From NCBI GenBank assembly GCA_035772405.1, contig JAYKKM010000016.1:642501-706500 (forward strand): DNA of 64,000 nt, read 5' to 3'. This document shows positions 7,959 to 26,084 of this stretch, one piece after another. Under the pieces are notes generated by a model that searched no databases, was not told the origin of the DNA, and saw nothing but the letters and a program-made list of their open reading frames with translations. This DNA is from Chrysogorgia sp. JL179-B06. Lineage: Eukaryota > Cnidaria > Anthozoa > Scleralcyonacea > Chrysogorgiidae. The position numbers were made by a program, and so were the translations under genes. Position 1 is the stretch's first letter. Every line of letters begins with the position of its first letter.

Positions 7959-8020
7959 AAAACGAGACGAAATAAATTAGACTCAAAAATCATCACACAC
8001 GTTTCCCAAAATATTTTTTT

Positions 8021-8257: not shown

Positions 8258-8306
8258 TAAGTTAGTATATACTCATGTCTTTAGGTCGTTTTGTAAATTA
8301 TTGTAA

Positions 8307-8855: not shown

Positions 8856-9481
8856 GTCCTATACTATACGACGTGTTTTGTTTTCGCGGAATAACTAATT
8901 CATACGAGTATGGATGTCTTAGAAGTATCTCCAATCTTGCGTATTCGTTGTCTTTCAACTGTTTTATTATTTTCTGAATTTCCACTTTATCGACTCCGTT
9001 GAGATAATCGTCTACGATAATTTTCATATCGTTTCTGTTGGGGTTGTAGAATGTTACTAACTTTGAGATGTTCTCACGGTATGGTTTACTAATTGAGGTT
9101 AGTTGTTGTGTTATGACTATTGTGGATAGGTTGTAGTGTCTAGCGCTAAAGGCTAGTTTAACTAGTTCACTTGTTCTGTTTTTTAACGTCCTGCCCACCA
9201 GCACAATAATCTAATATTATTAGTGAGTTGGTACCTTTATAAGTGTCAGTCACATGTTTAAGGACTACGTTGACCTTATCTTGCTCACACTGGATAGCGA
9301 TAAAGTCTGGGTCTCTCAAGTATTTCCACTCTATGTACGTCTTATTCCATTCGAACGTTGGGCATATAAGAATGATGAAATCGAAGTGATTCGTGTAGTC
9401 TTTCTCTATCATATCCAAGAGGTAGTACGTTTTACCGCAGGCTGTCATACCAACAATCAGCATGTTAAAAGGTGTTTTCAT
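8842..9481 (-). pseudogene. FtsK/HerA-type genome-packaging ATPase (A32-like), frameshifted
   Basis: This ATPase pumps viral DNA into the capsid. The start is best placed at the ATG at 9481 (MKTPFNMLIVGMTACGKTYY), where GMTACGKT is the Walker A box at residues about 11-18. The Walker B region reads SLIILDYCAGG, where most relatives have two acidic residues in a row (DD), so the second acidic residue is replaced by Tyr. A one-base expansion in a run of six A near 9185 shifts the frame. The protein continues in another frame with RTSELVKLAFSARHYNLSTI (sensor region, ...VITQQL) to 8842. About 212 residues, normal for Polintons. It starts 17 bases after the capsid gene stop, typical of the MCP-ATPase neighbourhood. 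Probably inactive here. Confidence 0.9.
8858..8870 (-). promoter_or_regulatory. Putative Polinton promoter, CGTATAGTATAGG
   Basis: Minus-strand sequence CGTATAGTATAGG ends two bases before the ATG of the 8855 gene. The same 12-mer occurs at 24040-24051, and close variants lie upstream of at least eight other genes on both strands. Confidence 0.7.
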
Positions 9482-9495
9482 ATAGAATACTATAT
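9482..9495 (-). promoter_or_regulatory. Putative promoter of the packaging ATPase
   Basis: Minus-strand ATATAGTATTCTAT directly precedes the ATG at 9481. It is a variant of the CGTATAGTATAG motif and sits in the short gap after the capsid gene. It also supports choosing this ATG over an upstream one at 9523. Confidence 0.45.
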
Positions 9496-9497
9496 GT

Positions 9498-10737
9498 TTA
9501 GTACTGGATTGATTGTAGATCATTGTTGATGAAGTTTACGAGACCATCGGAGAGCACGAATATTCTACACATAACGTTCGCTGTTGTGACTTCTTTATTG
9601 ATTCCATCAATATTCCTGACTGAGTGTTCACGATCCTTTTTCCAGTTGCAACTTTCACGTTATCTTCTATAGATCTAAGGTCAACAACCAAAGCGAAACC
9701 GTCTTTGTAAAACTTTTGGACAGTCATATGCTGGTCACAGTCAGCTAGTTTTTGTCCGAATAGTCTTTTCGCTTCTCCCAGAGTCTTGATTTTGGTATTC
9801 CTTGACTGTATACCATATTTGGTACACCTTCTATGGTGAGTTTGACTGACTCTATGTTTGGGTAGACGAACTCTTCGCTATCAGTTCTTGTTTTGTTTGT
9901 GAAGAGTAGAACGATAGCTTTCATTGATTTTCTTGGTATGTTAATATTCTCGTTTACGAGTGTGATTCCCTTATCCCACTCCACAGTCTTCATTAATGTG
10001 ATGTGTTCGTATGATAGAGACCTTCCGGACGCGTATAGAGATGATACTTCATCAGCAATCTCTTGATTCTCGATAGTTTCGTACTCCAACTCAAGGTTCT
10101 CTAACGTATAGCTAGCCACAGCTGATCCAGATTGAGCCACCATAATATCAGACGCTTTTGGGAGTGTGATTATATACCTGAAATTGTTGTTCATGTTGTA
10201 TGGTGCGTATAGACCATGATCTTCTAGAATCTTGTCGATTTGAACCTTTTGTTTGGTGTTATTGATAGAGAACATCAGACCATCGCTAACTTTTTGTACG
10301 TCTCCACTGGCCGCGCCACTGTCGTCCTTTGAGATTAGCTTTCGAAGGTTCTCGTTTGCTATACCGTATTCGACCATCTGGTCTCGCTCACTGTTAGATT
10401 TCCAGAGGTCTTTGTACGTACCGATGACGCTTTCACCACTATTGTCGTACACAGACTCACCAGCTAGTTTTACCACCAGTCTCTCAAATAGTAGTTTCGA
10501 AAGGTTGTTAAGAAACCATGATTTCGCATTCGAACTCTTAAAGTCGAATAGAATATGGAGACTAGAGGGTACCAAACAAGTGTTACCCTTTGTTTTCGGG
10601 ATATCGATGTATAACTCTTCCCCTGGATTGGCTTTGTTGGGCTTTAGCGTTACAACATTACGGGCTCTTACGCCTTTGATAGTAGAGTTTTCGCGCCGTC
10701 TATATCCAGGAAGCAACTCTTTTTCGTTAGTATTCAT
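9498..10737 (-). pseudogene. Major capsid protein, double jelly roll (MCP), two frameshifts
   Basis: The first frame (10737-9745, 330 residues) covers the first jelly roll and most of the second. Typical features are DHGLYAPYNMNNNFRYIITL, LENLELEYETI, KAIVLLFTNKTRTDSEEFVYPNI and the GVPNM-YSQGI turn. The remaining barrel follows in a second frame (FYKDGFALVVDLRS, about 9725-9600) and a third frame that ends FVLSDGLVNFINNDL at 9498. So two single-base losses, near 9775 and near 9605, break the gene. The intact protein would be about 413 residues. It builds the hexameric capsomers of a small icosahedral virion. The gene lies between the long membrane protein and the ATPase in the leftward virion cluster. 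Confidence 0.9.
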
Positions 10738-10752
10738 ACTATATATTATAAC
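10738..10752 (-). promoter_or_regulatory. Putative promoter of the capsid gene
   Basis: Minus-strand GTTATAATATATAGT abuts the ATG at 10737. It matches the TATA-AGTATA-type motif shared by other genes of the element. Confidence 0.45.
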
Positions 10753-10759
10753 ACATGTT

Positions 10760-12030
10760 TTATTTCCTCTGTTTGTACTGGTCGTAGACGAACCAAGCTA
10801 GTGCTATCGCTAGGATCCATAAATTAGACGCTAACCAAGATATGCCTGCAGCTCCCCACTTTAGCACAGTCGCCACCATGTTTAGCAGTCCAGACAGTAT
10901 AGGACCAGCCTTTGTGGCTAGGTTAGCTATAGCTTTTCCTAGTTTTCCAAGTGCTTGACCACCTTTGAAGACAACACTTCTAGCAGATATTATAATTGTG
11001 GTGATAAAAGAGGCTATGGTTATTCCTAAAGCCGAGGCACCCAACCAATTTTCTCTAAACCACTCCTTTATTTTTTGTAACCGAGTGATATCCTCTTCTT
11101 GTATCTCCCTAACCTCCTCACGTTCCAATTGATTTAAGGTTCGATCCTTAGCTATCTCGAGACCTGTCAATCGCTCAAACAATTCTCTCCTCTCTATGGA
11201 ACCGTATTCCTCTCTATTCATATCGTCTGCAGTCTTGTCAATAGCGTCCTGAAAATGGTCGGCTTGTGCTTTTAGAAATAGTGGTCTAGTGTGTGGGTCG
11301 ATTGTATCACTTGGGTTTAGGACACCTATTAACTCACGATTTTCTTCTTCTGTTAAACCAAATATCGTAGTTCGCTTCTGTTCTAACTACTGGGAAGTCC
11401 TCACTTGAAACTGTGGTGTCTTCTGTTCTATCGTCAGTTGTTGGGGTTTCTACTGTTCTAGCGTCAGTTGTTGTTGTGTCGGGGATTTGTCCAACTAACT
11501 TCTTAAACTGCTCAATCGCACTCTTACTTTTAGTGTCTGTACTGTAGATTAAACCATTTTTTCCAGGTTTTAGTATTAGTTTAGGTTTCAAATATTCACC
11601 GTCTTCTCCTACCGGTTTGAAAAGAATAGAACCTGAGGGTGTCACATATGACCTATTGACTATATTCCTTGACACATCGTCATGACTGAGTCTTTTTTTA
11701 TACAACCTATGTATTTTTCTATCTATTAGATTGGTTCTTTTTACACCATTTACTATTAACTTTTTATTGTCTCCTTTTAGTTCTTTCAGTCTTCTTTCGA
11801 TTTCGTTCGCCTCTTCGAAAGCTAAATCGAAGCTCTCACCGTGGACGTCACCATATGTTGCCGGTTCAGCAAACACTACTGTTGGGGCCTCAGCGGTGAC
11901 ATTACTACCCTTACTAGTGATTAACACTGTTTTCCCATCTTTTCCGCCTGTGAATAATGTCTCCATATATTTTATTCTGTCTTGTACTCTGTGTGATATG
12001 TCTCTCTTCTCTATCTCTCGTTCTACCCTA
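10760..12030 (-). pseudogene. Long Polinton membrane protein, C-terminal part (split by transposon)
   Basis: On the minus strand the frame enters from the transposon boundary at 12030 and runs through METLFTGGKDGKTV (11966) to about 11370, where a one-base frameshift occurs. In the shifted frame it continues through TIFGLTEEENREL and the 11221 region to 10760. The last 153 residues hold an amphipathic charged stretch, a segment WLGASALGITIASFITTIII (about residues 50-70 counted from 11221), a Gly/Ala-rich hydrophobic region and a final helix LWILAIALAWFVYD before a basic end. So at least two or three membrane segments are present. With the N-terminal piece at 17836-17990 the protein is about 470 residues. 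It is probably a virion membrane or minor capsid protein, judged by position between penton/integrase and MCP. Its function is not established. Confidence 0.75.
12029..12030. repeat. TA target duplication, left copy
   Basis: TA stands on both outer sides of the element at 12031-17833 (copies 12029-12030 and 17834-17835). Removing the element and one TA restores an open frame between the two gene halves, which confirms the boundary. Confidence 0.8.
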
Positions 12031-12042
12031 CACTGTTATTTG

Positions 12043-12312
12043 GAAGGAGTTATTTTAACTCCAAAAATGGAGTTAAAAAAAAAGGTTCAGGACAACTCTC
12101 TTTTTTAGAGTTATTTTAACTCCAGTACTTTTAACTCCAGTTTTGGAGTAAAAGTAACTCCAAATTATAGAGTCAATTTAACCCTTTATTGGAGTTGAAA
12201 ATACTCTCATTTTCGGAGTAATATTTACTCCAATTAAAGGAGTAAATACAGAAAATTCAAACTACTCCAGTTTTAGAGTCATATTAACTCCACCACCATT
12301 ACTCCCACTTTG
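12043..12312. repeat. Left subterminal array of GAGTTA-type palindromes
   Basis: About fifteen copies of GGAGTTA/TAACTCC-like half-sites, arranged as short inverted pairs with 4-10 base spacers. The array mirrors the one at the other end of the transposon. Confidence 0.85.
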
Positions 12313-12563
12313 GGAGTTATTTAAATCCTGTTTAAACAGATTAAAAATAGTTTTAGCTTCAAACCCTGTTGAACTATTCCCAACCTATTGCAATCAATGA
12401 AAAAATGCACAATTATATACTGTATAAATTGATGGTCTTTATTGAATAATATAATAATAATATTACAAATATACATGCACTGACTGATGTTAATATAATA
12501 TTGCATATATATATATAAACATGCATAAAAATAATTAAATAAAATAATGAATATATTCTATAT

Positions 12564-12790
12564 TCATAAATAATAATTATAATTTAACTCTTTGAGAAGT
12601 TTGTTTATTTGGACTCTCTTTCTTGCTTCTGTAGTATTTTCCATGAGGATAAACTCAAGGAAAATATAGAGACTTTTTGCATTAGTGGGGTACTGCATAT
12701 TAAATACATAGTACATGCCAACAACCAGTGCCAAAGCAGTCACCAGGTCCATGTCACACAGCAACCGTCTCTTCAGTATCTAAGGCAAGA
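12564..12790 (-). CDS. Exon-like C-terminal fragment of an unknown gene carried by the nested transposon
   Basis: The minus-strand frame reads MDLVTALALVVGMYYVFNMQ, then YPTNAKSLYIFLEFILM and a basic tail ending at a stop at 12564. The YYVF-(N/G)-(L/M)-QYP...LxFLE pattern resembles the C-terminus of uncharacterised multicopy proteins common in cnidarian and sponge genomes. Other exon-like pieces on the same strand lie at about 16640-16810 and 16895-17030, so this may be the last exon of one gene. No function can be assigned. Confidence 0.35.
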
Positions 12791-13431
12791 AACCAAAACA
12801 ATAAGTTATAAATTCTGAACTTGCATTTAATTATGATTTTTTTGCCCAGAGAGAGGAAAAATATTGCTCCTTATGTTCTAGGGATGTTCAGTATGAGAAA
12901 AATTAAAGAAAACATTTTCAAACATGCCAGAGAGAAAGCAATCTTCTACCGATATACTAATACCATTTTAAGTGTTTTATCGAAGACAAATGTTGACAAT
13001 TGTATACTACAAATCATATTGTGTAAATAGACCTTTACACACACACTTGTGTTAGGAATGACCAGTACATTTAATATTTGGAATCTTTTAGTGAATTGGA
13101 ATCTTTCTTGCCAGCTAATATGGCAAACCAGAATTATAACTAGCAGAATCTCTGAATTGTGTCCCCAAACCAGTATTATCATTTGGTATGTCTAAAATTT
13201 CCATATACCAAGAAATTCTAGTGTGACAAAGTCATACCGACAAATCAATGGAATTCAATACTTTCAATATTTTCAACCATCGGCTACAATATATTAAATG
13301 TGACTTGCAGCTTGGTCATTTTAACATGGTAAACTGTTTGCTACTCAAGCTTTTAGCACAAACTCACAAAATGTTTCTGGTTACTGTTACAGAAACATTT
13401 TCTGAGTTTATATATATATATATATATATAG

Positions 13432-13630
13432 AAAGGATTTATGGTGAAGGAAAATTTCGAGTGTTGGAATACATACATTTTAAGACCAAACCAGGACTAG
13501 TTGCTGCATAAAATGCAACTTCAAGGCCTTCCGGCTGGAATTGAACCTGTGATCCTGCGACGCTAGTGCAGTGCTCTGACCACTGAGGCCGTTGCCGAGA
13601 GCCTAGTCATGAGTTCTGTTTTTTATAGTG
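13432..13630 (-). mobile_element. tRNA-derived SINE, reversed
   Basis: On the minus strand the sequence contains a pol III A box (TGGTCAGAGCACTGCACTAG) and B box (GGTTCAATTCC) with tRNA-like spacing. These are followed by a conserved body (AAGTTGCATTTTATGCAGCAA... ACATTTTAAGACC in reverse sense). Parts of the same family are at about 17205-17290, 39966-40085 and 54295-54385. Confidence 0.65.
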
Positions 13631-13681
13631 GTGGTAATGCATCAGTCAAATCCAACCATGCCCATCCCCCCCTGGGACACC

Positions 13682-14273
13682 CAGTGGCGTAACGTTATAT
13701 CAGGGGGCCCCCGGTTCAAAATTTGTGAAGGCCCTCCTAGTACGAGTGCCGAAGGCACTAGTCGAGCGCCATAGTCGCTAGTTTTCTAGGTGGGTCCGGG
13801 GGTATGCTAATCTAGAGTCTCTGAAAATGCCATTTCCTGGATTTGGGGGAAGATTTTACAAAATTCTGATGGTCAGAAAACGACATTATACTGTAACTGC
13901 ATATCAAAATTTACAATTTGTTTAGAAATTAGTACGAAATACACTTGCTGTCTTGCTCTGTCTTGCTGTTTGAAAAATAACCATCCGCCATATTGAAATT
14001 GGAAAAGTGACCAAGCCTTCGGTATATTGTCGTATCACAATCGCCAAATGTCGTACGTCGTACACGTCACCATGTGGCACGTGAAGCGGTGAAGGAGAAG
14101 AAAAAAAGCATATTACACCATCAAAAGGATATTTTGTTGTTGTGTGCATGCGTTTTTCGTTTCTCAGAGGCCCTGACAATTTGTTTTTGCTCTACAGCCT
14201 GAGCTTGGGGCCCCCCATTTGGGCCATTGGGGTTGGGGGCCCCCGGTCCGAACCCATAGTAGTTACGCCACTG
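13682..14273. mobile_element. hAT-type MITE
   Basis: The ends are CAGTGGCGTAACG and TAGTTACGCCACTG, flanked by GGGACACC (13674-13681) and GGGACACT (14274-14281), an 8-bp duplication with one mismatch. There is no coding capacity. CAGTG-type ends plus 8-bp duplication are typical of hAT elements. It lies inside the 5.8-kb transposon, so it is third-level nesting within the Polinton. Confidence 0.8.
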
Positions 14274-14596
14274 GGGACACTGCCAGGCATTTGAAACATT
14301 GACCAATCCCGGGGGTGGGGAATTTGAACCCAAAACTTTGCTTGGGTGTCGGGCATTAGATAATACAGTTATCTGAGCCTTGTTCCCTTTGGGCAGCACC
14401 AAAAGGCAGGTCAGGGGGTTAGGTGCAATTGAATTGCCACTCCCCCCATAGCATTGCATGTTGTTCGAGTGTGATTCGATCATGGAGGAGTTTAAGCCTT
14501 TAGTCTACAGCCTTAAATTTAGCAGAATGACATACCTAGGAGGTAAAGGATTAACACCAGTGCCTTGTAAATAGTATTTATATAATAATTTGATAT

Positions 14597-15540
14597 TTGA
14601 AAACACTGAATATTGTTGTTATTGCTTTCATGTTTCTGCCGGGGCCGGGGATTTGCCACAGATTTTTTGCCCAGCAGCGGGGCATTTGCACCTGCATTTC
14701 AACCCCACTGCGTGGAATTAGCATCATTTTGGAAAACATTGTCAAATGCCCGGGGGTTGGGGGGGGGGGGGGGGATGGGCACGCTTGGATTTGACTGATA
14801 CATAATACCGGGATAAGATTCTGGGTATATTATAGGAATAATGGGGGAACATCAAAGAAAGCTTTCAGATTTCTTTGACGACTCATACCTATATTATATG
14901 TTTACTTATACTGTATGTTATAAATACCAGTCCAGTGCTCTGGTTGGACTAACTGGAGTGGTACATGTATGTATAAAACTGGGCATCAATACACTGTACA
15001 CCCAGTTTTTGATAAGAAAACTTTCTAATTATTTAAAAAGTTGGTTAATTTATATTACATATATGTACTGCCTGTAGTGGTCAGTGCCTACATGCATATA
15101 TTATTTATAGATAAAATGTATTTATGCATTGGTCATTTATGTATGTGCTCTTTGGCCATCATAATCAAAAAAATTATCAACTAGTAGTAAATAAACTGAA
15201 ACTTACCAAAATGAACTCAATAAAATATTTGGGTCTGCACTTCGCTTATCTTTGTTGAAGCAGGAATGGCAAAATTGCAACTTCATCTAGAATATGTTAA
15301 AAAGCAAGAAACAACCTAATTAAAATACAGATAACATTGCAATATTTAAGCACAGTAGTGACTATTATTACAAATGCATGGATAATCAAGCTAAAATCAT
15401 CAGAAAATGAGTCCCAGACAGTTTCCCAAGCATTACTATTTACTAATATATACAGTAGTGACTCTTGCATATACTATATGCAAATAGCAATCAAACTAGT
15501 ATATATATATTATTGTTAAATGTAACCTTAACTTTGCTTA
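14597..15540. other. Gene-free interior of the nested transposon
   Basis: Contains a run of 18 G near 14759-14776 and AT-rich filler. No gene was recognised. A short SINE-tail-like piece (TACCGGGATAAGATTCTGGG) is at about 14805-14830 and recurs at 40053-40080. Confidence 0.4.
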
Positions 15541-15615
15541 TGAGTCTTGGTAGCTCAATGGTTAGAGCATGTCACTGTCAATCAGAAGGTTACAGGTTTG
15601 AGCCCTGTCTGGAAC
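15541..15615 (+). mobile_element. tRNA-like SINE head
   Basis: The sequence has an A box (TGGTAGCTCAATGGTTAGAG) and a B box (AGGTTTGAGCC) 30-odd bases apart, with partial D-arm and T-arm pairing. The acceptor stem is not well closed, so this is more likely the head of a SINE, continuing to about 15720, than a working tRNA gene. Confidence 0.55.
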
Positions 15616-15791
15616 TCTCTGCATTTTCTGATGATTTGAGCTTGACAATTGTCCACATGTATAGTCTGAGCCGCTATTTGCCACGTGTATTTTACTTCCA
15701 AATGAAAAATCTATAATTAATATAGATTATACATACCGGTATGCAATATCACATGAAGAAATCTTTTAAATGATACCAAATGTTTGATGTT

Positions 15792-15942
15792 ATATATGAA
15801 CAACGAGAGCGAGTGTTTCACCGGGATATCCAAACACGAGAAAACAATGTATGAAAACACGAGCGCGAAGCGCGAGTGTTTTTGTTAATTGTTTTTGAGT
15901 GTTTGGATATCCCGGTGGGACACGAGCTCGAGTTGTTCATAT
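15792..15942. repeat. Long palindrome
   Basis: TATATGAACAAC...CCGGGATATCCAAACAC is followed by its inverted copy GTGTTTGGATATCCCGG...GTTGTTCATATA around a GC-rich centre (GAGCGCGAAGCGCGAG). It can fold into a nearly complete hairpin. Similar hairpins with the same style of centre occur at 37122-37250 and 56227-56408. Confidence 0.8.
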
Positions 15943-16189
15943 AGCATCTCAATTGAACACAATAGTAATTAGTTATAATTTAAATTGCAGTTTACAATTT
16001 TGAAGATTATTTGCATGCGTAATTAAGATATTAGATGAACAACGTTGTTCATCTAATATCCAGGTCACGCGTATTGTGTTGGCATGGTTCACCGGGGTAT
16101 CCAACCGCAATCACCTGATTAATTCGCCTACTCTGATTGGTTAATTAACTCATGAATTAGTCATGAATTTGAGATGTTATATACCAAAT

Positions 16190-16470
16190 ATTAGATGTGT
16201 GAAGCTGATCGTCCAGGTTGTTGTAGTCTTGAGAACGAGTCACCAACAACAGTCTTTAATAGTCAACAATAGTCAACAATAGTCACCAACAATAGTCTTT
16301 AATAGTCAACAATAGTCTTTAATAGTCAACAATAGTCTTTAATAGTCAACAATAGTCACCAACAATAGTCTTCAATAGTCAACAATATATACCTGTAGTC
16401 TTTATTAGTCATCAACAATAGTCTTTCTCAAGACTACAACAACCTGGACGATCAACTTCACACATCTAAT
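16190..16470. repeat. Inverted repeat with internal AATAGTCAACAATAGTC array
   Basis: The arms ATTAGATGTGTGAAGCTGAT (left) and ATCAACTTCACACATCTAAT (right) extend over about 45 bases each, to TAGTCTTGAGAAC. Between them are about a dozen copies of AATAGTC-containing 9-20 base units. It is probably a foldback-type MITE that has expanded internally. Confidence 0.75.
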
Positions 16471-16639
16471 GATACTCCGGAGCATATATATCACATATGC
16501 CATTTATACTCTCTGAACTTGTCCTTTTCAGCAAGGATTTAAATATAAGAAATTCGCTTTTGTTAATTGTTATTCATACCTAATCATCGTTATTATAAAC
16601 AAACGAAAGCTATGTATACATAGACAATAATACATACCA

Positions 16640-17030
16640 CTCTGTAAAGGATTGGCTTTCTTCGTCATTCAAATCTTTTTGATTAGACACTCTATTATCC
16701 ACATTCCCGTTGAAAAATAACTCTTCCCACACAATTGAATACTCTAAGACAAAGTTTTTGATAAGATATTTGAAATTCAAGTCAACTACAGTATTTGATT
16801 TAGAATTTATAACATTTATAGCTGCTTCAAACTTGCAATGCGTTTATTAAAAGTAGCTTTATAATAATCAAATATGAAGTAGATCAAACTCACCTTCGAA
16901 CTTTGCTGAAATCCAATTGTATCATTTGTAATACCGACGAGTAATTGCTGTCAGATATTTCTTTAGAAATGGTAAGACAAAGCAATTTACCAAAGAATCC
17001 AAGACACAAAGCTGCATAAGTGTTCTCGAC
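16640..17030 (-). CDS. Exon-like pieces of an unknown spliced gene
   Basis: Two minus-strand open stretches end at plausible donors. One, at about 17030-16894, reads TYAALCLGFFGKLLCLTISK and ends before GTGAGT. The other, at about 16805-16642, reads NFVLEYSIVWEELFFNGNVD and ends before GTATGT. They are in the same orientation as the fragment at 12564-12790 and may belong to the same gene inside the nested transposon. No family was recognised and exon boundaries are approximate. Confidence 0.3.
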
Positions 17031-17395
17031 CAAAAGAGAATTCAAATATGGGCGCAGCAGCTTAACTCGCCAGGACCTCTGGGAAATGGCCTCGACCCAG
17101 GCGCTATTTTACCCGCCGCGTGACGGGCCATGATAGATTCAAACCATTTATTTTAAGCATTTTAATGTTACCCTTAATGCCTGACAATATTACGACAATA
17201 TTTGGAGTGTAGGAACATATAAACGTTAATACCAAATCGGAACTAGTTGCGAAAATGCAACTTCAAGGCCTCCCGCGTAGAATTGAACCATATTGTTGAT
17301 TATGTTTAACATACTGTAAACATTAGAACATTATGTAATTACCTTTACTTATAAAATTACAGTCTGGTCATTAATGACGATTCCCTGACATTTGA

Positions 17396-17822
17396 CTCCA
17401 GGACTGGAGTTATTTCAACTCCTAATAATGCCCGAGTTATTTCAACTTTCTGATGATGAGAGTTATTTTAACTCCATTATGAAAGTTAAAATAACTAAGC
17501 TAAAAGAGTTAATTTAACTCTCTTGCCGGAGTTATAATGACCCATTATTATAGAGTTATTTTGACTCGTATAAGAGTTATTTTAACTCCAGTGACAGAGT
17601 TAAAATAACTCCAGATGATACCAGAGTTGATTTAACTATGTGAGAAGAGTTATTGTAACTCTGGTGTGGGAGTTAAAATAACTCTTCGTCATGGAGGAGT
17701 CATTTTAACTCGATGGAGGAGTAGTATTAACTCCAATAATCGGAGTTAAAATAACTCAACGAAATAACTCCATCCGAAGGAGTTAATTTAACTCAATTGA
17801 CCGAGTTATTTTAACTCCTCGA
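17396..17822. repeat. Right subterminal array of GAGTTA-type palindromes
   Basis: More than twenty GAGTTATTTTAACTC-like palindromic units or half units. The array is longer than the left one and lies directly inside the right terminus. Confidence 0.85.
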
Positions 17823-17835
17823 AAATAACAGTGTA

Positions 17836-17990
17836 GTGATTCTGTCGAGCATACCACTATATTCTGGTCCTGTCTCATCTCCCGTGAGTGTATTATTGAG
17901 CATGTCAAACTCTTCTTCTAACTGTTTGTCTGTATATTTCTCAAACTTGTCACGATCTTGCATTTCGATTTCATCGAGTCCTTCAGCCAT
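17836..17990 (-). pseudogene. Long Polinton membrane protein, N-terminal part
   Basis: From the ATG at 17990 the frame reads MAEGLDEIEMQDRDKFEKYT and runs 51 codons plus two bases into the transposon boundary. It resumes in phase at 12030. The start is supported by GTAGTATATA directly before the ATG, a form of the element's promoter motif that also contains the TAG stop of the integrase. The segment is acidic and predicted helical, without membrane segments. See the C-terminal part at 10760-12030 for the rest. Confidence 0.75.
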
Positions 17991-18000
17991 TATATACTAC
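17991..18000 (-). promoter_or_regulatory. Promoter-like GTAGTATATA overlapping the integrase stop
   Basis: Minus-strand GTAGTATATA sits directly before the ATG at 17990, and its TAG is the stop codon of the integrase. The same economy is seen between penton and integrase (CACGTAGTGTAT at 19077-19088). Confidence 0.45.
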
Positions 18001-19076
18001 TCGATATTTTGAATATCGCTTTCTGGTATCCATGAGTTGTGTTTACTATCGTAACCAAGCCACTTAACCAAAGCCATCTTCTTACCCTTGACCTTCTTTC
18101 TCTTTAGTATCTTATCAACTTTGCATACATCGTCTTTTTTATCAACAGCTGATAGCTCTTCCTCGTAGAACTTACCAATGATGGATTCCCCTTCATGGTC
18201 TTCTATCTCATATACGGTAGGGTCACCGCGTATGACCTTTGACACTTTGAATAGCTCCTCAGTGAAGTTAGCCTCATACCCTTTTGCAAATATGCTTTTG
18301 TACTTTGATATCCTGACAGTCTCACCTACTTTGAACTTTGGCAGTGGGTAGTCACCGAAATGGTGTCCAAACAATGTCGTCCATACTTCGTTTTCGTTTT
18401 TCTTACTAACGTCTTTTGGTTTCATTAGAATAGTACTGTGTTTGGTATTATTGTAATTTTCAACGAGTTGGTCTAAAATGTCAATCCACTTGTACGTTCC
18501 TTTGCTGTAGAAGTACTTCCACATAGACGTCTTGAGTGTTCTGTTAAACCGTTCCACGACTGCTGCCTTTTTATCAGAGTTCGTGCTGAAGTACTTCACA
18601 TTGTGTTTCTCCAACAGATCCTTCACACCAACGTTGTAGAATTCCTTACCATCGTCAAACTGAACCAGCTTTGGATACTCGCCAAATCTAACCTTAGCCT
18701 TCTCCAGTAACTTTGCGACAGCCTTAGTCATGTTTTTCGTATCTTTCCTATAGACGGGTATTGCGAAAGCATACCTACTAAGGATCTCAGTGGCTGTTAG
18801 TATCCAGTAGTACCCGTTGTTCTTATGCTTGTACTAACCCATATCGACCAAGTCCATCTGTATCTGCTCACCCAGATAGTCAACAAATGTTTGTCTAAAC
18901 TTATGTTTCTTAACAACTGGTTTGTACCTGGTGTACGTGTCTTGAGATTTTAGCCAATCCTTTATCTTTGCCCTACTAACACTTAGTCCATCTTCTTGTG
19001 CCTTTTGGTACAGCCTCTCAGCAGATTGGTAACCAGTTGATGGGTTGTAGTAAATATCTCTTAGTTCTTGCTCCAT
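17997..19076 (-). pseudogene. Polinton integrase (DDE, retroviral type, with chromodomain), one in-frame stop
   Basis: The enzyme inserts the element's DNA, giving the 6-bp duplication. The ATG at 19076 starts an N-terminal domain (residues 1-70), followed by QIQMDLVDMG with a catalytic Asp at about 75-78. A TAG at 18834-18836 (codon 81) then interrupts an otherwise continuous frame of 359 codons. Beyond it are the VQFDDGKEF box (second Asp) and AAVVERFNRTLK (catalytic Glu) about 34 residues later, then an SH3-like region (FKVGETVRI) and a C-terminal chromodomain (VDKILKRKKVKGKKMALVKW ... SWIPESDI). All catalytic residues are present; only the stop disables it. It follows the penton gene by six bases. 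Confidence 0.92.
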
Positions 19077-19088
19077 ATACACTACGTG
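19077..19088 (-). promoter_or_regulatory. Promoter-like CACGTAGTGTAT before the integrase
   Basis: On the minus strand the sequence immediately before the integrase ATG is CACGTAGTGTAT, which also holds the TAG stop of the penton gene. Confidence 0.35.
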
Positions 19089-19724
19089 ATGTGTAAATCT
19101 AACAACACCTCGTCAACGTTAATACTGTTATCGTCCTGATCTGTTATCTTGAACTCTAGTTGATTGATGATTCCTTTATTTATTGGGATTTTCGACCCAA
19201 CACCAAAATGTTGTACAGAACCTTTAAGTGTCTGCGTGCTAGTTATTGGTAGTACTGCGATACAATCACTTTTGCTACCGTTAACTATGTTCTTAGACCT
19301 GTCCACAATATTATATGTTACTTGTATGTATTTCAGTCCTCTGTTAACGTTCACAACGTTGGGACTGGTTTTTGTGGTGGCTATTGTAGTGTTTTCGTCA
19401 AATCCCAAGAGTTGTCCAAATTTAAACAGTTCTATTCGTTGATCAGTTGTTATCGTACACGTCGAGTCATATCTGTTAGCTACTAGTTTGACGTCTCCTA
19501 ACTCTTTCAAGTCGTCGGCGATCATTTTAAAGTTGTGGTACCCAGGACTAAAAACGTGATTATTACTGTTATAAGTTATCTTACTGTTGGCTGTGGTTAC
19601 GTTAACGTAGTCCCAAAAGATGGTTGCCTCCTTCACTAGTAAGTGAGGGTCTAAGTTAGTTGCTAGAATTGACTCTGGTAGGTCTACAGTTTTAGTTGAA
19701 CCACTAATCAATACTACCACTCAT
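19082..19724 (-). pseudogene. Penton-like minor capsid protein (single jelly roll)
   Basis: The frame gives about 212 residues with PESILATNLDPHLLVKEATI and WDYVNVTTANSKITYN, which looks like an N-terminal strand region. It also has LFKFGQLLGFDENTTI and a C-terminal ...NQLEFKITDQDDNSINVDEV. The LLGF and the Phe-x-(I/L)-x-DQD-(G/D)-N-x-(I/V) end are hallmarks of the penton-type jelly-roll protein of Polintons that fills the capsid vertices. The first ATG at 19724 is out of frame after two codons. A one-base loss near 19719 has disturbed the start, and otherwise only GTG at 19720 could begin the frame. It is divergent from the gene at 19742 and precedes the integrase. Confidence 0.75.
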
Positions 19725-19745
19725 ATAACGTACGGTATGTTATGA
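19721..19745. promoter_or_regulatory. Divergent promoter region between penton gene and rightward cluster
   Basis: Only about 17 bases separate the two start codons. The sequence ATATAACGTACGGTATGTTAT is nearly palindromic and carries a CGTA/TATA-type core in both directions. It is the switch point from leftward to rightward genes. Confidence 0.5.
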
Positions 19746-21372
19746 TGGATGCGTTCAAAAGAAAGTATCCTTATGCTGACAAGAATAGGTTTTTTCTTGA
19801 CGTTGACGACAATATGCATATACATATATTCTTCGTGACGAAAACTAATATTGGTGACGTTTCGATAGACTCGAGTAGGTTTAAGAGTAACCCGGAGTAT
19901 ACTAAGTATCTAACGATAAACAAACCAATGATAGTTAACCAGAAAGAGATAGCTAACGCCGTACGTGTGGCTAAGCTGAATCTAGTGACAAAGTACCCTC
20001 ACATCACTTTAAGCAAGTTTGAGTTCGATCCAACTGTCTCACAAGATGGTGAGGTTAATGGCGTTGACATATATTTTAGAAAAACGACATCATAAGCACT
20101 AACATAACTAGTGATACCTTCAAAAACGACAAGAGTATGTGGGTTTGGTTACACAACAACAAGTCTCCAAAAGGTCACGACGACAAGTTTCCAGAAATAT
20201 GGCTATCTGGTGGAACTATCCAACCATTATCAAAAGGTCGCAAGAACCACTGGGGACTTTGGGATGGCTATCCAACGGAAAACGTGTTGAACTACCCAGT
20301 GAATAACTTTAGAGTCTTCGTTAATCGAAAGAGCTACTTTCTCTCAAAGCTACCAATATTACAAATCACCACTTCAAAGACAAAGTCAAAGTGGGACGAC
20401 AACGAGAGCTACTATAGAGTCGTGTTTGCAACATATTGTGCAAGTTTCTGTTGTGGAGTGTCGTTACAACACTTATCACCCTCGCAAGAAGTTCACCCTG
20501 TTATCACAAGTGTAATGAGGTTCCATCTGTACTTTACAGTTAGAAGACTTCTCAGAAGGATGGAAGGTGGTGAGAGTATGAGATCGATAAGTAGAGAGTT
20601 TGATGCTGGATAATTGTATGGTAAGACAGACAAGATTCCTAAAAAACATTACTACCAGGGTAAAGTCCTTGCTGATGGTACAACAGGTGAGGAGAGAGTC
20701 TTCACGATTAACGACGTTAAGAACGACTACAAACGATACGTTCCTCTGGTGTCGAATGGTTTCACCAACATTGGGAGACAATACCTAAATCAGTCCATAG
20801 AGGCCTTTGTTTACTCCACACTTGGTGCACAAGCGAGGACACGTGTGTCAGTCGTTGGTGATTCTGCAGGCAGTCTAGAGACTCAACAAGAGTTCCGCAA
20901 GTTGGTGGAGGACAGTGTTATAAACTACGACGTTTCAACGTGGATTCTCAACATGAACAAGTCGAATAAAGACACTAATGTTGTCCAAAACCTTGCACTG
21001 TCACCGTCTACGTGGTTAATGCCAAGTAACGTTGTAATCCTCAAGAACAAAATCGCTGGGTACAACAACCTATTGAAGACTGCTACACAGAGTATGAAGT
21101 TTGGAGTAAACAGTGGGTTAAACTACACAGAAACGACAGAGGTCAAGAAAGTACACCAAGAAGGTGGAGAGCATCTGGAGACACTCGATAAACCAAAGGT
21201 GACGAATCGTCTGACACCAAACGTGACACACCTGGAGACACTTGATAAACCAAAGGTGACACACCGTCTGGAGGCATCAAAGGCGTCACCAGGTGACAAC
21301 ACGACAGAGTTGGGGCTAATTCTAGTGGTTTCGGCTGTGTCTGGATATTTAGTGAGCAAATATGTGTTATAA
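19742..21372 (+). pseudogene. Large unknown Polinton protein with C-terminal membrane anchor, several frameshifts
   Basis: Three frames line up as one protein of about 540 residues. They are 19742-20091 (MMDAFKRKYPYADKNRFF...), 20095-20435 (STNITSDTFKNDKSMWVWLH..., ...NNFRVFVNRKSYFLSKLPIL) and, after a scrambled stretch at 20436-20613 with at least three indels, 20614-21372 (YGKTDKIPKKHYYQGKVLAD...). The second half holds DVSTWILNMN and LSPSTWLMPSNV, two imperfect repeats of a HLETLDKPKVT motif near 21170-21270, and ends with a membrane segment LGLILVVSAVSGYLVSKYVL. I do not recognise a family with known function. Its size, anchor and location opposite the penton gene suggest a virion surface or minor capsid role, which is inference. 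Confidence 0.65.
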
Positions 21373-21376
21373 CATA

Positions 21377-22324
21377 ATGAGTCTAAGTTATGGATTTGAG
21401 GATAGAGACTACGAGAGCGACAAAATACTAAGAATAGCGAAGAGACATCTAGACAGTGACCCTAAGTTAAGCGTGAGCGGTGGGAGGATGTCTGGAGACA
21501 TAGATATGGCGTTCAGGACACTCAAAAACATAGCAGATCCAGAAGATGATTGGGATGCTATCAATAAAAAAGTGTTGGAGTCCGTATACTTATCGCAATA
21601 CTTTAGAACGCAGTCCTATAACGTTCTATTTGATTTTAACGTCACAAACCATGCTGTGAGTATGGTGGAATACCACAGTGGAACAAATAAAGTGAAAACC
21701 ATTAGAGATAAAACAAACATGTTAGTACAATACGACCCAACGTATGGTCCTATTATTGTTGTTAACAACGGTCATAGCTTCCTATCCCCTGAGCTAACTC
21801 CGATTCCGTTTGAAGCTGGAGTGCATTTTAACTGTCCACGTATGCAATACTGTGACATATCCGTTTTTATGGTAGTGAGGTTAGTCACCAGGGTTTCTAC
21901 GAAAGATTGGGAGGCGATTATCTCAAACGATGACGGATCGTGGGACAAATACATAGGGTACAAAGGAGGCGATAAATTATCGTATGGTGGTGGAGCTCCA
22001 GCAAAGGAGTACACGTGTACAATCCCAAATAACATCGACACCACCAAGAGACATATGACATCAATACATTGGCGGATGGGTAACTCCTACGTTAAGGTGA
22101 ACAACATAAGATCAACAGACTCAGACTTCACAGCTAATTACGAAGAGATAGGGTCTCCTTACGTAACGATCTTTGGAGTGCATCGACCAAGAGTACCACT
22201 AGCACCCTACAAGTACCCGTCTTTGATAGAGTTCTACGGTGTGAGGATTGTCTCTGGCTACATGACGAGCCGAGACATAATATTAGTTGGTAGAGATATG
22301 ATGAAGGAATATGATGTGAGCTAA
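21377..22324 (+). CDS. Fibre-like protein with C-terminal lectin-type domain
   Basis: 315 residues from the ATG at 21377, five bases after the previous stop; an upstream in-frame ATG at 21362 lies inside the previous gene. Residues 34-67 contain GGRMSGDIDMAFRTLKNIAD followed by DDWDAINKKVL. This is the GGxxxGDIDMxxxxIxNLxxPxxxxDAxNKKY-type neck motif found at the start of phage and viral tail-fibre shafts. Residues about 85-315 are beta-rich with W, G and D-rich loops (SNDDGSWDKYIGYKG, HWRMGNSYVKVNN, LIEFYGVRIVSGYM) and resemble a concanavalin/LamG-like lectin fold. A role in recognising a cell surface is plausible but is inference. The frame is intact. Confidence 0.65.
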   Translation: MSLSYGFEDRDYESDKILRIAKRHLDSDPKLSVSGGRMSGDIDMAFRTLKNIADPEDDWDAINKKVLESVYLSQYFRTQSYNVLFDFNVTNHAVSMVEYHSGTNKVKTIRDKTNMLVQYDPTYGPIIVVNNGHSFLSPELTPIPFEAGVHFNCPRMQYCDISVFMVVRLVTRVSTKDWEAIISNDDGSWDKYIGYKGGDKLSYGGGAPAKEYTCTIPNNIDTTKRHMTSIHWRMGNSYVKVNNIRSTDSDFTANYEEIGSPYVTIFGVHRPRVPLAPYKYPSLIEFYGVRIVSGYMTSRDIILVGRDMMKEYDVS

Positions 22325-22329
22325 GATAT

Positions 22330-22842
22330 ATGAGGAAGAAGTCAGTTGTTGTTTTCAATCACATATCAAAGGATATGTCAGAGGAAGAGGTGCTAGAGCT
22401 GAAACGCTTGTACGCGTACTACCACAAACTAGAAGCCTGTTACAAATGGAAATACAAGAGGTTGAAGAAAGTTAAACTATCGTTAAACATGACTAGCATA
22501 GGGTTAACGACAGTAGGGATTGTAGCTGGATCGATAACCGCTAACCCTCTAATCATTGCTTGTATTAGTGGTCCTGGTGTGATCATCCAAGGCTACTTGG
22601 CTAAATCCAATCTGACGAGTAGAGTGGAGCATTGTAAGTTCGCACATACTAGTTACAAAAAGATACTGACACAACTAAGATCGTATCTTAGAGGACTTCC
22701 TTACAACGAGTCAATGTTTCTCTCAGACGTTAAAGTGTTGGACGATAATGTGACTGACTTATGCCCACCAATCAACGGAATGGTGAAAAGGTACAACAAA
22801 GTATACGAGACACAAGGGGGGTCCGATCCCGACACCCCTTAA
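22330..22842 (+). CDS. Polinton membrane protein with glycine-rich hydrophobic hairpin
   Basis: 170 residues, starting five bases after the fibre gene stop. Residues 20-50 form a charged helix. About 54-92 (LNMTSIGLTTVGIVAGSITA, then NPLIIACISGPGVIIQGYLA) form one long or two short membrane segments separated by NP. The second half (KFAHTSYKKILTQLRSYLRG..., VKVLDDNVTDLCPPINGMVK) is helical and soluble. Similar proteins are known to me as uncharacterised genes of cnidarian Polintons. The role is unknown. It is followed by a 340-base gap with three hairpins. Confidence 0.7.
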   Translation: MRKKSVVVFNHISKDMSEEEVLELKRLYAYYHKLEACYKWKYKRLKKVKLSLNMTSIGLTTVGIVAGSITANPLIIACISGPGVIIQGYLAKSNLTSRVEHCKFAHTSYKKILTQLRSYLRGLPYNESMFLSDVKVLDDNVTDLCPPINGMVKRYNKVYETQGGSDPDTP

Positions 22843-22930
22843 ACACGGATCTACACGTAAGAACTAGTGATATGTCAGTCGACAAGTTCCAAGAGTAGGT
22901 GCTCATAAGTATCACCAATTAGGAGTTTGT

Positions 22931-22965
22931 TCTGACCAACCCCCCGTTTTGGGGGGTTGGTCAGA
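22931..22965. terminator. Perfect GC-rich hairpin 1
   Basis: Stem of 15 pairs (TCTGACCAACCCCCC and its complement) with loop GTTTT. It is the first of three hairpins between 22842 and 23181. It may mark transcript ends of the upstream gene, as hairpins do in some giant viruses. Confidence 0.55.
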
Positions 22966-22994
22966 TCGTGTGTTTGTGCAAAGCAAATTATTGT

Positions 22995-23029
22995 TTTTTA
23001 AACCCCGTCGTTTCAACGGGGTTTAAAAA
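22995..23029. terminator. Perfect hairpin 2
   Basis: TTTTTAAACCCCGT pairs with ACGGGGTTTAAAAA around loop CGTTTCA. It has an A/T extension on both sides, which is a bidirectional terminator shape. Confidence 0.5.
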
Positions 23030-23093
23030 TATACATCCAAGTACAGTCTATATATCAGAACCAGGAGTATTGAGCAGTTATTTTTTAAGAATA

Positions 23094-23120
23094 GCTGACC
23101 CCCCAAAACGGGGGGTCAGC
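23094..23120. terminator. Perfect hairpin 3, inverse of hairpin 1
   Basis: GCTGACCCCCC pairs with GGGGGGTCAGC. Its core CCCCCCAAAACGGGGGG is the exact reverse complement of the core of hairpin 1, so the two could also pair with each other in DNA or RNA. Confidence 0.5.
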
Positions 23121-23164
23121 TTTACCTAAAGAAAAACACTACTTTAAGTTTAAAATAAAACATA

Positions 23165-23177
23165 CGTTATAGTATAG
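23165..23177 (+). promoter_or_regulatory. Putative promoter, CGTTATAGTATAG
   Basis: It ends three bases before the ATG of the Bro-N gene. One extra T relative to the CGTATAGTATAG consensus. Confidence 0.6.
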
Positions 23178-23180
23178 GTG

Positions 23181-23984
23181 ATGAGTATCACTAAAATATT
23201 TAGAAATAACGACATGTCAGTCACTGCTATAAAAGATGGAGACAATATTTGGTTCTACGGAAAAGAAATTGCAGAGATTTTAGGATATAAGAGACCGTAT
23301 AAGGCTATAACAGATCATGTCGACGATGATGAGAGAAGAAAAGTTAGTAAGGTAACACCTCAGAGTATACCAATTGATACAGACTGTCAAAACAGACAAG
23401 TTTGGCAAATCAACGAGTCTGGAGTCTACGCTCTAATATTCTCATCTAAACTAGAGTCTGCTAGGATGTTTAAAAAATGGGTGTTCTCAGAGGTGTTACC
23501 ATCTATTAGAAAGACGGGCCAGTACACACAATGCAACCAGTTATCAATAATGAATGAGACAGACTTGCATTATGATATAGTTAAATATATTAGAGAGTAT
23601 CACCCAACAATAGTCATCCCAGGGTTGGGTGAGTACCAAGACACATCTACTAAAAGAATAGATGGATGGAAGAAGGGTTACAGTGGTGGACAACCAGATT
23701 TGATAGTTCCACAACTACATAAGAGATACAATGGTTTTGCTATAGAGTTCAAAACACCGAAAGGTAATGGGGTTATTAGGGATAACCAGTTGAGGTTATT
23801 AAGGAGACTAAGATCACAAGGGTACAACACGTTACTATCCTCAGACCAACATGAGATAATACATTTCATAGAGACATATATGAGAGACTCCAGAGTCCTG
23901 TGTGAGTACTGTAATAGGAGATTCAAGAGTGAAACCACACTATTTAATCACCAAAAATACTTTCATCGAATACTCTATCTGTGA
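23181..23984 (+). CDS. Bro-N domain / VRR-type nuclease / C2H2 zinc finger fusion
   Basis: 267 residues from the ATG at 23181. Residues 1-115 are a clear Bro-N DNA-binding domain (DNIWFYGKEIAEILGYKRPY, QVWQINESGVYALIFSSKLE, FKKWVFSEVLPSIRKTG). Residues about 145-225 carry a PD-(D/E)xK nuclease of VRR-NUC style: GGQPDLIV (Asp173), FAIEFKTPKG (Glu189, Lys191), then DNQLRLLRRLRSQGYNTLL with the usual Gln. The C-terminus is a C2H2 finger (C241, C244, H257, H262). Bro-N proteins are regulators in large DNA viruses and phages; the nuclease may act in recombination or DNA repair. All key residues are present and the frame is intact. This combination is unusual for a Polinton. Confidence 0.85.
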   Translation: MSITKIFRNNDMSVTAIKDGDNIWFYGKEIAEILGYKRPYKAITDHVDDDERRKVSKVTPQSIPIDTDCQNRQVWQINESGVYALIFSSKLESARMFKKWVFSEVLPSIRKTGQYTQCNQLSIMNETDLHYDIVKYIREYHPTIVIPGLGEYQDTSTKRIDGWKKGYSGGQPDLIVPQLHKRYNGFAIEFKTPKGNGVIRDNQLRLLRRLRSQGYNTLLSSDQHEIIHFIETYMRDSRVLCEYCNRRFKSETTLFNHQKYFHRILYL

Positions 23985-24030
23985 GATAATCTGTGAGATG
24001 ACTGTGAGATGACTGTGAGATGACTGTGAC
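23985..24030. repeat. Short tandem repeat GATGACTGTGA
   Basis: About four copies of an 11-base unit directly after the Bro-N gene and before the next promoter. It is probably a slippage product. Confidence 0.8.
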
Positions 24031-24039
24031 TAGATATCA

Positions 24040-24051
24040 CGTATAGTATAG
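24040..24051 (+). promoter_or_regulatory. Putative promoter, CGTATAGTATAG
   Basis: Exact consensus, directly abutting the ATG at 24052. Confidence 0.7.
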
Positions 24052-24372
24052 ATGACTGACAGTGAGTCCGTACCTATTATAACGTCGACAACAAGGACCA
24101 AAGACCCTAAGAGAGTAGAGGCAGGCAAACGCTTGGCTGCTATATCTAAAGCTGCAAAGGAGAGGAAGATGAGAGAGAGAGTGGTAAGTGAGATAGAGTA
24201 TGATGGTTTTAGTTATGGATACATAATAGGAACTATGGGAGTGGTTATAGCTGCTGGCTCGTTGTATTACGCGATGAAACAAGACAAACAAATGGTGACT
24301 GTTAACGAGGAGTCTAAGAACGTTGTAATAAAAAAGGAACCACCACCACGTAAACTCGACAGCCTCGATTAA
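24052..24372 (+). CDS. Single-pass membrane protein
   Basis: 106 residues. A basic, Ala-rich N-terminal helix (KDPKRVEAGKRLAAISKAAK, about residues 17-36, with a second half to 44) is followed by one membrane segment (YGYIIGTMGVVIAAGSLYYA, about 55-74) and a short Lys/Pro-rich tail. Small proteins of this design recur in cnidarian Polintons. The function is unknown; a virion membrane component is possible. It is first of six tightly packed small genes (24052-26074). Confidence 0.65.
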   Translation: MTDSESVPIITSTTRTKDPKRVEAGKRLAAISKAAKERKMRERVVSEIEYDGFSYGYIIGTMGVVIAAGSLYYAMKQDKQMVTVNEESKNVVIKKEPPPRKLDSLD

Positions 24373-24379
24373 AACATAT

Positions 24380-24389
24380 CGTATAATAT
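24380..24389 (+). promoter_or_regulatory. Promoter-like CGTATAATAT
   Basis: Variant of the consensus directly before the ATG at 24390. Confidence 0.5.
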
Positions 24390-24623
24390 ATGGCATCAAT
24401 AGATAGAAAAGAACTGATGAACGAGCTATACGACGCAGCCCTTGTGACTGCTGGAGCCGTAGCCGTATCCATGGCATCAAAGAAAGTACTAAAAGAACCG
24501 TTGGGTACCCCCGAATCAGTGAAGGGTACCCTCAAGTTAGCGACTGCTGTAGGCGTTTCAACGCTACTCGTTAAGTGGGCGCAGAGCAAGAAATACTTAC
24601 CTATTGACCCGTTCTCAAAGTAA
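24390..24623 (+). CDS. Small hydrophobic Polinton protein
   Basis: 77 residues. Two weakly hydrophobic helices (AALVTAGAVAVSMASKKVL and LATAVGVSTLLVKWAQSKK) are separated by GTPESVKGTLK. The start MASIDRKELMNELYD and the PIDPF end give it a recognisable layout that I associate with a conserved unnamed Polinton family. It may be membrane-associated. No function is known. Confidence 0.65.
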   Translation: MASIDRKELMNELYDAALVTAGAVAVSMASKKVLKEPLGTPESVKGTLKLATAVGVSTLLVKWAQSKKYLPIDPFSK

Positions 24624-24639
24624 TCTAACGTAATACATA

Positions 24640-25056
24640 ATGGCTAGTGTGATAGCGGGTGGTTTGTTCAACGCTATAGCATTCGCAGGAGCTGGGTTCA
24701 TATTCAGCAAGCTAAACCATACCGGCTACGAGACAGAGATAAAGAGACACAACAAAGCATTGGAAAGTCTCGCAAAAGCGAAAGAAAAGTTCTACGAGAA
24801 TGAGATTCGTCAGAGAGACAAAATCCAGGAATTAAGACAACAGTTGTCAGATGCTAACGCAGATATAAACGACACGAACCACGCTCTGGACCAACTAAGA
24901 CAAGTACTGACGATACAGTATGATGGGAAGACATTTAGTAAAGAGCCTGAGCTGTCAGACTATTACAAACCTTCAGATGAGATGAAAGAGTATCAAATGT
25001 TATTCGTCGGAGTTGTTGGGCTACCTTTAGGTTATCTAATATATAGAGTAGTATAA
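24640..25056 (+). CDS. Coiled-coil protein with membrane segments at both ends
   Basis: 138 residues. A hydrophobic start (VIAGGLFNAIAFAGAGFIFS, residues 4-23) is followed by a long charged coiled coil (about 30-95, heptads of L, I and K/E) and a C-terminal hydrophobic segment (MLFVGVVGLPLGYLIYRVV). AACGTAATACATA precedes the ATG, a weak form of the promoter motif. Its stop overlaps the next start (TAATG). It is perhaps a structural membrane protein of the virion, by analogy only. Confidence 0.65.
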   Translation: MASVIAGGLFNAIAFAGAGFIFSKLNHTGYETEIKRHNKALESLAKAKEKFYENEIRQRDKIQELRQQLSDANADINDTNHALDQLRQVLTIQYDGKTFSKEPELSDYYKPSDEMKEYQMLFVGVVGLPLGYLIYRVV

Positions 25057-25241
25057 TGAGCACTAAAACTTTGAAGGAGATGGCTATGGAATTTGATAAA
25101 AAGCGTAACTTGACAGAGACACTCTCTTACCAAACTCGTCAGATAGAAGAGTTGGAACAACTACTATCAGACGCTCTAAAACAGGTCGCAACAATAAAAT
25201 GTGAGTGGGAGACACTCAACCACAAAGTTACTACACTATAG
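25056..25241 (+). CDS. Small coiled-coil protein
   Basis: 61 residues, starting in the overlap TAATG with the previous stop. Nearly all of it is predicted coiled coil (heptad Leu, Ile and Val; LSYQTRQIEELEQLLSDALK). No membrane segment. The upstream gene contains TATAGAGTAGTATA immediately before the ATG, which may be its promoter. It may pair with the coiled coil of the preceding gene. Confidence 0.55.
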   Translation: MSTKTLKEMAMEFDKKRNLTETLSYQTRQIEELEQLLSDALKQVATIKCEWETLNHKVTTL

Positions 25242-25249
25242 TCTAAAGG

Positions 25250-25263
25250 TATATATAGTATAG
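25250..25263 (+). promoter_or_regulatory. Putative promoter, TATATATAGTATAG
   Basis: It lies eight bases before the ATG at 25272. The spacer TAACTTAG is nearly the same as that before the small gene at 8257. Confidence 0.6.
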
Positions 25264-25271
25264 TAACTTAG

Positions 25272-26074: not shown

Positions 26075-26084
26075 TTTCGAACTA

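Follow-up and report, generated by a model that had tools for sequence, protein, structure and literature searches.

The DNA analysed here, a window of 64,000 nucleotides from the cnidarian Chrysogorgia sp. JL179-B06 (contig JAYKKM010000016.1, positions 642,501 to 706,500), contains a Polinton at positions 7857..31663. The element is bounded by terminal inverted repeats, AGTAGTATAG...CTATACTACT (inverted repeat I6, 43 nt, 98%), and a 6-bp target duplication, GATGTA, can be read in the sequence at both of its ends. Together with a DNA polymerase gene (PolB), a retrovirus-type integrase with a chromodomain and an A32-type packaging ATPase, these ends identify the element as a Polinton/Maverick, and they are the features that it has in common with the animal Polintons, Mavericks and adintoviruses. 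A preliminary description of this DNA had pointed to a motif shared by the sequences directly before many start codons. We found that the whole motif-bearing stretch lies inside this one Polinton, which two later insertions interrupt, and that the motif is real and element-wide; we propose that it is probably the core promoter of this Polinton lineage.

Several genes of the element could be assigned by Pfam. The ATPase was recognised in the open reading frame (ORF) 9167-9523 (Pox_A32, 1.4e-7), the integrase by its chromodomain (Chromo, 6.6e-12; the rve match stayed under its cut-off, E 0.016), and the protein starting at 23181 as a Bro-N/VRR_NUC protein. The gene for the protein-primed-type PolB occupies 27492..31545 on the minus strand. 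The only Pfam match of this ORF itself is PF02945, and its assignment comes from its homologues, which number in the thousands at about 70% identity (69-74% among the best 120 listed of at least 7993 scored) and some of which carry PF03175. Capsid proteins with double and single jelly rolls were sought as well, and the likely structural genes of the element gave no match in Pfam or PHROG.

The shared motif, written at 16 positions, is AYATNNCGTANNRTAT. At 15 of the 18 scored starts, on both strands, 0-5 bases separate it from the ATG, with scores of at least 11.4, and AAAACA often stands ahead of it. On the minus strand it precedes the starts at 8855 (8861..8876, score 17.8, gap 5), 9481, of the A32-type ATPase (9482..9497, score 16.0, gap 0), 10737 (10743..10758, score 16.2, gap 5), 17990 (17994..18009, score 13.6, gap 3) and 19076, of the integrase (19077..19092, score 15.6, gap 0). 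On the plus strand it precedes 21377 (21360..21375, score 13.7, gap 1), the Bro-N/VRR_NUC start at 23181 (23160..23175, score 16.5, gap 5), 24052 (24034..24049, score 18.6, gap 2), 24390 (24374..24389, score 20.3, gap 0), 25056 (25039..25054, score 14.7, gap 1), 25272 (25251..25266, score 15.8, gap 5), 25895 (25878..25893, score 15.5, gap 1) and, in a weak form, 24640 (24623..24638, score 11.4, gap 1). Where the genes diverge, the ATGs at 19724 (minus) and 19742 (plus) are 17 bases apart, and one quasi-palindromic box of 18 bases (19723..19740) is read in both directions, serving both genes with scores of 14.3 and 17.8. This divergent pair and the start at 21377 had been missed in the preliminary description. 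Its exact or near copies at 8855, 23181, 24052, 24390 and 25272 were recovered by a mismatch scan, and the forms that it called weaker, at 9481, 10737, 17990, 19076, 24640, 25056 and 25895, scored 11.4-16.2 with gaps of 0-5 bases. It also noted correctly that an upstream gene can have its stop inside the motif, as is the case on the minus strand for TAG at 17997-17999 (the integrase stop, in the box before 17990) and TAG at 19082-19084 (in the box before 19076). The start at 8257, which it had listed too, is not conserved in 12 other copies of the element and was dropped, as was 11221, a start that we had added and that is not kept in 6 copies. Three scored starts lack a convincing box: 22330 scored weakly (8.7), and 11966 and the PolB start at 31545 (-2.7) scored below zero; 11966 was kept in the counts as a miss.

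The motif was originally noticed as the 12-mer CGTATAGTATAG, which turned out to be its strongest form only and is not its best description. The exact word occurs twice in the 64 kb, each time at a start: at 8859-8870 on the minus strand, 3 bases upstream of the ATG at 8855, and at 24040-24051 on the plus strand, directly adjoining the ATG at 24052. Allowing up to 2 mismatches gives 12 matches in the window versus 4.71 expected (standard deviation 2.25), a number reached in none of 100 shuffles (the highest gave 11), and near copies precede 23181, 24390 and 25272. At 11 of the 20 starts initially considered, at least 7 of the 9 positions of TATAGTATA are matched within the 25 upstream bases, as against 7.5% of the 478 other ATGs of the element, and no set among 20,000 drawn at random from the other ATGs reached the mean match of the 20 starts. 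A de novo search by expectation-maximization (EM), which used no knowledge of the 12-mer and took the 40 bases upstream of the 18 starts, returned A[CT]ATNNNGTA, and it is this motif that is written as AYATNNCGTANNRTAT when taken at 16 positions. Its log-likelihood was 66.3, versus 37.4 +/- 2.5 (largest 43.4) in 40 dinucleotide shuffles, so the enrichment over shuffled sequence is clear. In a scan of the whole window, 17 of the 24 sites above threshold fell in the element, and 16 of these 17 stood at starts; the scan is in-sample, the matrix having been trained on 16 of the 18 scored starts, and the fair test is therefore a hold-out split by strand. Training on 6 minus-strand starts and testing on the 12 others gave p 2.3e-6, and training on 10 plus-strand starts and testing on the 8 others gave p 2.6e-5, both against 470 other ATGs.

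The host genome (781 Mb, 522 contigs) was then a second source of evidence. The exact 12-mer occurs 594 times in it versus 258 times for the reversed word, a 2.3-fold excess, and the extended form AAAACANNNNKTATARTATA followed by an ATG within 6 bases was found 1552 times versus 0 times for the reversed controls. All 30 alignable loci from the search with the extended motif match the Polinton. Variation among copies is lower in the core of the box, with 11 of 81 columns variable, than in its free columns (12 of 36, p about 0.02) or in the 30-base upstream flank (71 of 270, p about 0.02); a copy entered this comparison at a site only if that site had played no part in its selection, which left 8855 and 10737 without eligible copies. 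Of 20 loci given for the divergent pair, 19 were aligned, and all 19 have the 17-bp gap exactly as in the window; neither the 20 bases upstream of 19724 nor those upstream of 19742 differ from the window in any of the 19. That the boxes are a product of chance or of AT-rich base composition could draw on the 12-mer alone, which is only moderately over-represented in the window and exceeds its reversed control no more than 2.3 times in the genome; it is contradicted by the count of 1552 versus 0, by the de novo search, by the hold-out and also by the column variation, and we give it practically no weight. The motif is thus shared, strand-aware, placed 0-5 bases before starts and tied to this element.

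What does such a box do? The TATA box of RNA polymerase II is expected to lie about 25-30 bases upstream of the site where transcription starts, a spacing that here would place that site inside the coding sequence. The virus-type promoter with very short leaders suggested in the preliminary description is therefore the better reading, although the promoter role itself is read from the DNA. Poxvirus late promoters set the transcript start in or just beside themselves, and a signal of this kind fits the position of the box. We put at about 0.6 the probability that the motif is a start-codon-abutting, late-type core promoter of this Polinton lineage, used with a dedicated initiation factor. In this model AYATNNCGTANNRTAT, often after AAAACA, would be recognised by that factor and not by the host TATA-box machinery, and RNA polymerase would begin transcription within the box or immediately behind it, so that leaders would be some 0-10 bases long. 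PolB, which has no box, would fall outside the motif class and would probably be switched on first, through another promoter; that a replication gene lacks the box fits an early/late division. Promoter role, leader length, timing and reader are all deduced from sequence features.

The tight spacing would also suit a signal acting in RNA, for translation start or re-initiation on polycistronic transcripts: the distance to the ATG is fixed, and several neighbouring genes overlap or almost abut (TAATG at 25054-25058 and at 25893-25897). Such a role is very unlikely, however. Among the strongest boxes are that of 23181, which comes after an intergenic stretch with hairpins, and that of the divergent pair 19724/19742, which has no upstream gene in the same direction; a DNA box that is read both ways is a better fit to a promoter. 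By eye, the consensus is close to palindromic (ATAT...ATAT), and its near-dyad form could instead make it an operator, bound over the gene starts by a dimeric repressor or silencer such as the Bro-N protein. That the element encodes such a protein at 23181, and that one box serves two divergent genes, would agree with this. An operator, however, has no need to keep 0-5 bases from the ATG, and the promoters would then still have to be placed in junctions of few bases; furthermore, the signal that takes the same place in a sister lineage, described below, is not palindromic. We consider an operator improbable.

The sister lineage came from a search of the host genome for the poxvirus late transcription factor VLTF3. 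The profile PF04947 (Pox_VLTF3) gave 37 matches there, 25 of them above cut-off and none in the window, and 9 of the 37 loci were taken for closer reading. One of them (L191) is a Polinton of another lineage, which we call lineage B as opposed to the lineage A of the window, and it carries a VLTF3 gene; L192 comes from a second copy. Lineage B encodes an integrase, a membrane-type protein, VLTF3, PolB (69% identity to that of the window) and the ATPase (49%), and its orthologues of lineage-A genes have 35-71% identity depending on the gene. It has homologues of the window genes 10737 (69%) and 8855 (42%), and of 19742/20137, 21377, 24052 and 24390 (35-62%); none were found for 22330, 23181, 24640, 25272 and 25895 in the 12 kb of lineage B plus L190. 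The starts of this lineage bear a different signal: TAAATG is present at 9 of its 12 starts versus 5 of 337 other ATGs there (p 2e-12) and versus 0 of 17 starts of lineage A (p 2e-5). Mechanically called ORFs gave the same picture, with TAAATG at 8 of 23 in lineage B versus 0 of 28 in lineage A (ORFs of at least 70 aa in the latter), and the lineage-A matrix gave no score above 1.4 on the 12 lineage-B starts. The signal next to the start codon thus differs between the two lineages, and it is of the VLTF3 type in the lineage that has VLTF3: the late promoters of vaccinia virus are described as TAAAT with a following G overlapping the start codon (PMC11980589). Since the A32 ATPase, the integrase and several other genes are orthologous between the lineages, the signal has changed, and not just the genes.

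A third lineage, C (L190), has a VLTF3 gene beside Polinton genes, with its zinc-ribbon pattern intact. The proteins of lineages B and C match the PF04947 profile with 1.9e-10 (L186) and 4.1e-18 (L190), respectively. A further VLTF3 copy (L189) has a stronger match, 6e-28. Upstream of the lineage-B VLTF3 start we also observed a near-perfect inverted repeat, TTTAACAC...GTGTTAAA, in 5 of the 6 copies L182-L187, slightly changed in L187. As to where VLTF3 occurs, one account calls it undetected outside Nucleocytoviricota (PMC11253617), and another reports it in adintovirus-like regions of Amoebidium (PMC11244446).

The combination of TAAATG and VLTF3 in lineage B lends plausibility to a dedicated factor, and in that lineage TAAATG and a VLTF3-type factor would do the job for which the window lineage would use the longer box and its reader. 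In this reading the window lineage would have changed its promoter sequence and lost VLTF3. No VLTF3 was found in the window, where the reader is most likely a protein encoded by the element, such as the 207-aa protein at 25272..25895 (plus strand), in which a zinc-ribbon-like CxxC...CxxC pattern can be read. Its position, copy number and intact state make this protein a candidate: the host genome has 150 or more full-length copies (91-100% identity), 148 of the 150 without an internal stop, these being 150 of 2956 first-look candidates that were scored, and one homologue of 70% identity was found elsewhere. The stretch 25272-25400 encodes an internal GYTLDEI repeat that is absent from that homologue. 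A likeness of the protein to VLTF3, suspected by eye, is not supported by profiles, PF04947 giving no match at E up to 10.

The main rival to an element-encoded reader is a helper virus, upon which the Polinton would depend in the way of a virophage: a DNA virus would supply an RNA polymerase that uses the box as a late promoter, and the Polinton would wait for this virus. Virophage promoters are reported to match those of their giant virus (PMC8547959, PMC10945749), and the window ORFs scanned included no recognisable RNA polymerase gene. A likeness of motifs could point to such a helper in the nudivirus HzNV-1, for which TTATAGTAT is quoted as a late promoter (PMC6626001) and which is stated not to use the baculovirus DTAAG motif (PMC3280521). 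The same 9 bases stand before 23181, and by eye 8 of the 9 before 8855 and 24052. An HzNV-1-type late promoter is not, however, what the window genes have in general: the exact motif precedes 1 of the 18 starts only, the wider Polinton motif is longer, tied to the ATG and different, and the nudivirus motif is quoted for few genes of one virus (PMC6626001). In viral contigs the extended motif, the form searched for there, matched once in each of 47 and twice in none, a pattern suggestive of chance. We regard a helper as unlikely, and an element-encoded reader of the putative promoter as the preferred solution.

Several observations weigh against this reading, or limit how far it reaches. The starts were picked from ORFs and homology, and in part by the preliminary description, for which reason the cross-strand hold-out was added; in the held-out tests five starts (22330, 24640, 25895, 31545 and 11966) did not reach significance individually, and two (9481 and 17990) were only marginal. 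At 17990 and 24052 the core positions are more variable among copies than the free ones. Across species, the box is missing from the only PolB relative in IMG/VR (L001, 42%); in this distant relative VLTF3 was not seen in the 10 ORFs scanned, and TAAATG stands at 1 of 15 mechanically called ORFs. The structural model of the 25272 protein (predicted local distance difference test, pLDDT, 41) was unusable, being too poor for a fold search, and hhalign comparisons of this protein with VLTF3 gave probabilities of 0.4% and 0.5% from thin profiles. Lineage B was read at two loci in two copies (12 kb), and in lineage C the sole start that could be read has no TAAATG, which could speak against a link between VLTF3 and that signal. 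In viral contigs, a single PolB query gave no match, alignments of PolB and of the 25272 protein gave one relative and none, respectively, and the alignment of 21377 gave 25 weak partial matches (28-63%, in short pieces).

Compared with known systems, the element of the window resembles the poxvirus late promoters in that each gene has a short AT-rich signal at its start codon, on both strands; lineage B shares TAAATG itself, at 9 of 12 starts, and has a PF04947 gene. The window lineage differs from them by the lack of TAAATG (0 of 17), by the longer box and by the VLTF3 not found there, and poxviruses bring their own RNA polymerase, whereas none was recognised in the Polinton ORFs scanned. 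In virophages and endogenous mavirus-like elements (EMALEs), each type of Polinton-related element is described as having its own motif before genes (PMC8547959); the mavirus motif is TCTA. Those elements are, however, tied to giant viruses of protists, and the Polinton motif is another sequence, 0-5 bases from the ATG. Type-specific motifs in protist virophage-like elements and TAAATG with VLTF3 in poxviruses are thus already known. For animal Polintons, the relevant passages of one study describe motifs at the ends of the elements and no gene promoter motif (PMC8097293). Our literature searches by term found no account of Polinton gene promoters, and a search for the letters TATAGTAT returned mainly primer sequences.

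The remaining features lie between and around the genes. The segment 12031..17833, delimited by inverted ends (I7), is a later insertion foreign to the Polinton: the copies L089, L111 and L113 are continuous from ~12030 to ~17834 without it. Its ends are built of many inverted repeats of the GAGTTAAAATAACTC type. A second later insertion, also foreign, spans ~26091..27491 and was judged from its inverted ends (I2, I5) alone. Between the gene end at 22842 and the start at 23181 are three perfect GC-rich hairpins (22931..23121) with stems of 15, 14 and 12. Their number is not above that in mononucleotide shuffles (mean 2.0, largest 6), and only their length and clustering stand out; by eye, hairpins are also visible at this position in several other copies, with a different sequence. 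Mimiviruses use hairpins as a signal for the 3' end of transcripts, and the hairpins of the window could possibly have that function. The terminal bases of the Polinton (7857-7866 and 31654-31663, AGTAGTATAG) resemble the putative promoter box, as a comparison with GAGTAGTATATA before 17990 illustrates. Outside the element, to its left (6097-7091), Pfam recognised fragments of a reverse transcriptase and of a helicase-like protein, and a palindromic cluster of AGTATAGTATAC lies at 37407-37429.

The results suggest that Polintons may carry virus-style transcription programmes of their own. A wider and more tentative proposal, which we consider possible and by no means the likeliest outcome, is that these are autonomous late programmes of the giant-virus type, with VLTF3 and TAAATG as the ancestral state, and that the window lineage switched promoter sequence and reader together; this proposal rests on two lineages and needs more. 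Whether Polintons descended from virophages or were ancestral to giant viruses is presented as a matter of debate (PMC10328495, PMC8715426), and an element-wide code, together with a sister lineage that has VLTF3 and TAAATG, makes this question directly testable. The promoters predict which factor reads which element, and the code helps in calling the true gene starts in decayed copies. If the wider proposal is right, Polinton lineages would be isolated from each other by their promoter codes, and the late transcription system of the Nucleocytoviricota would be older than, or shared with, the Polinton branch.

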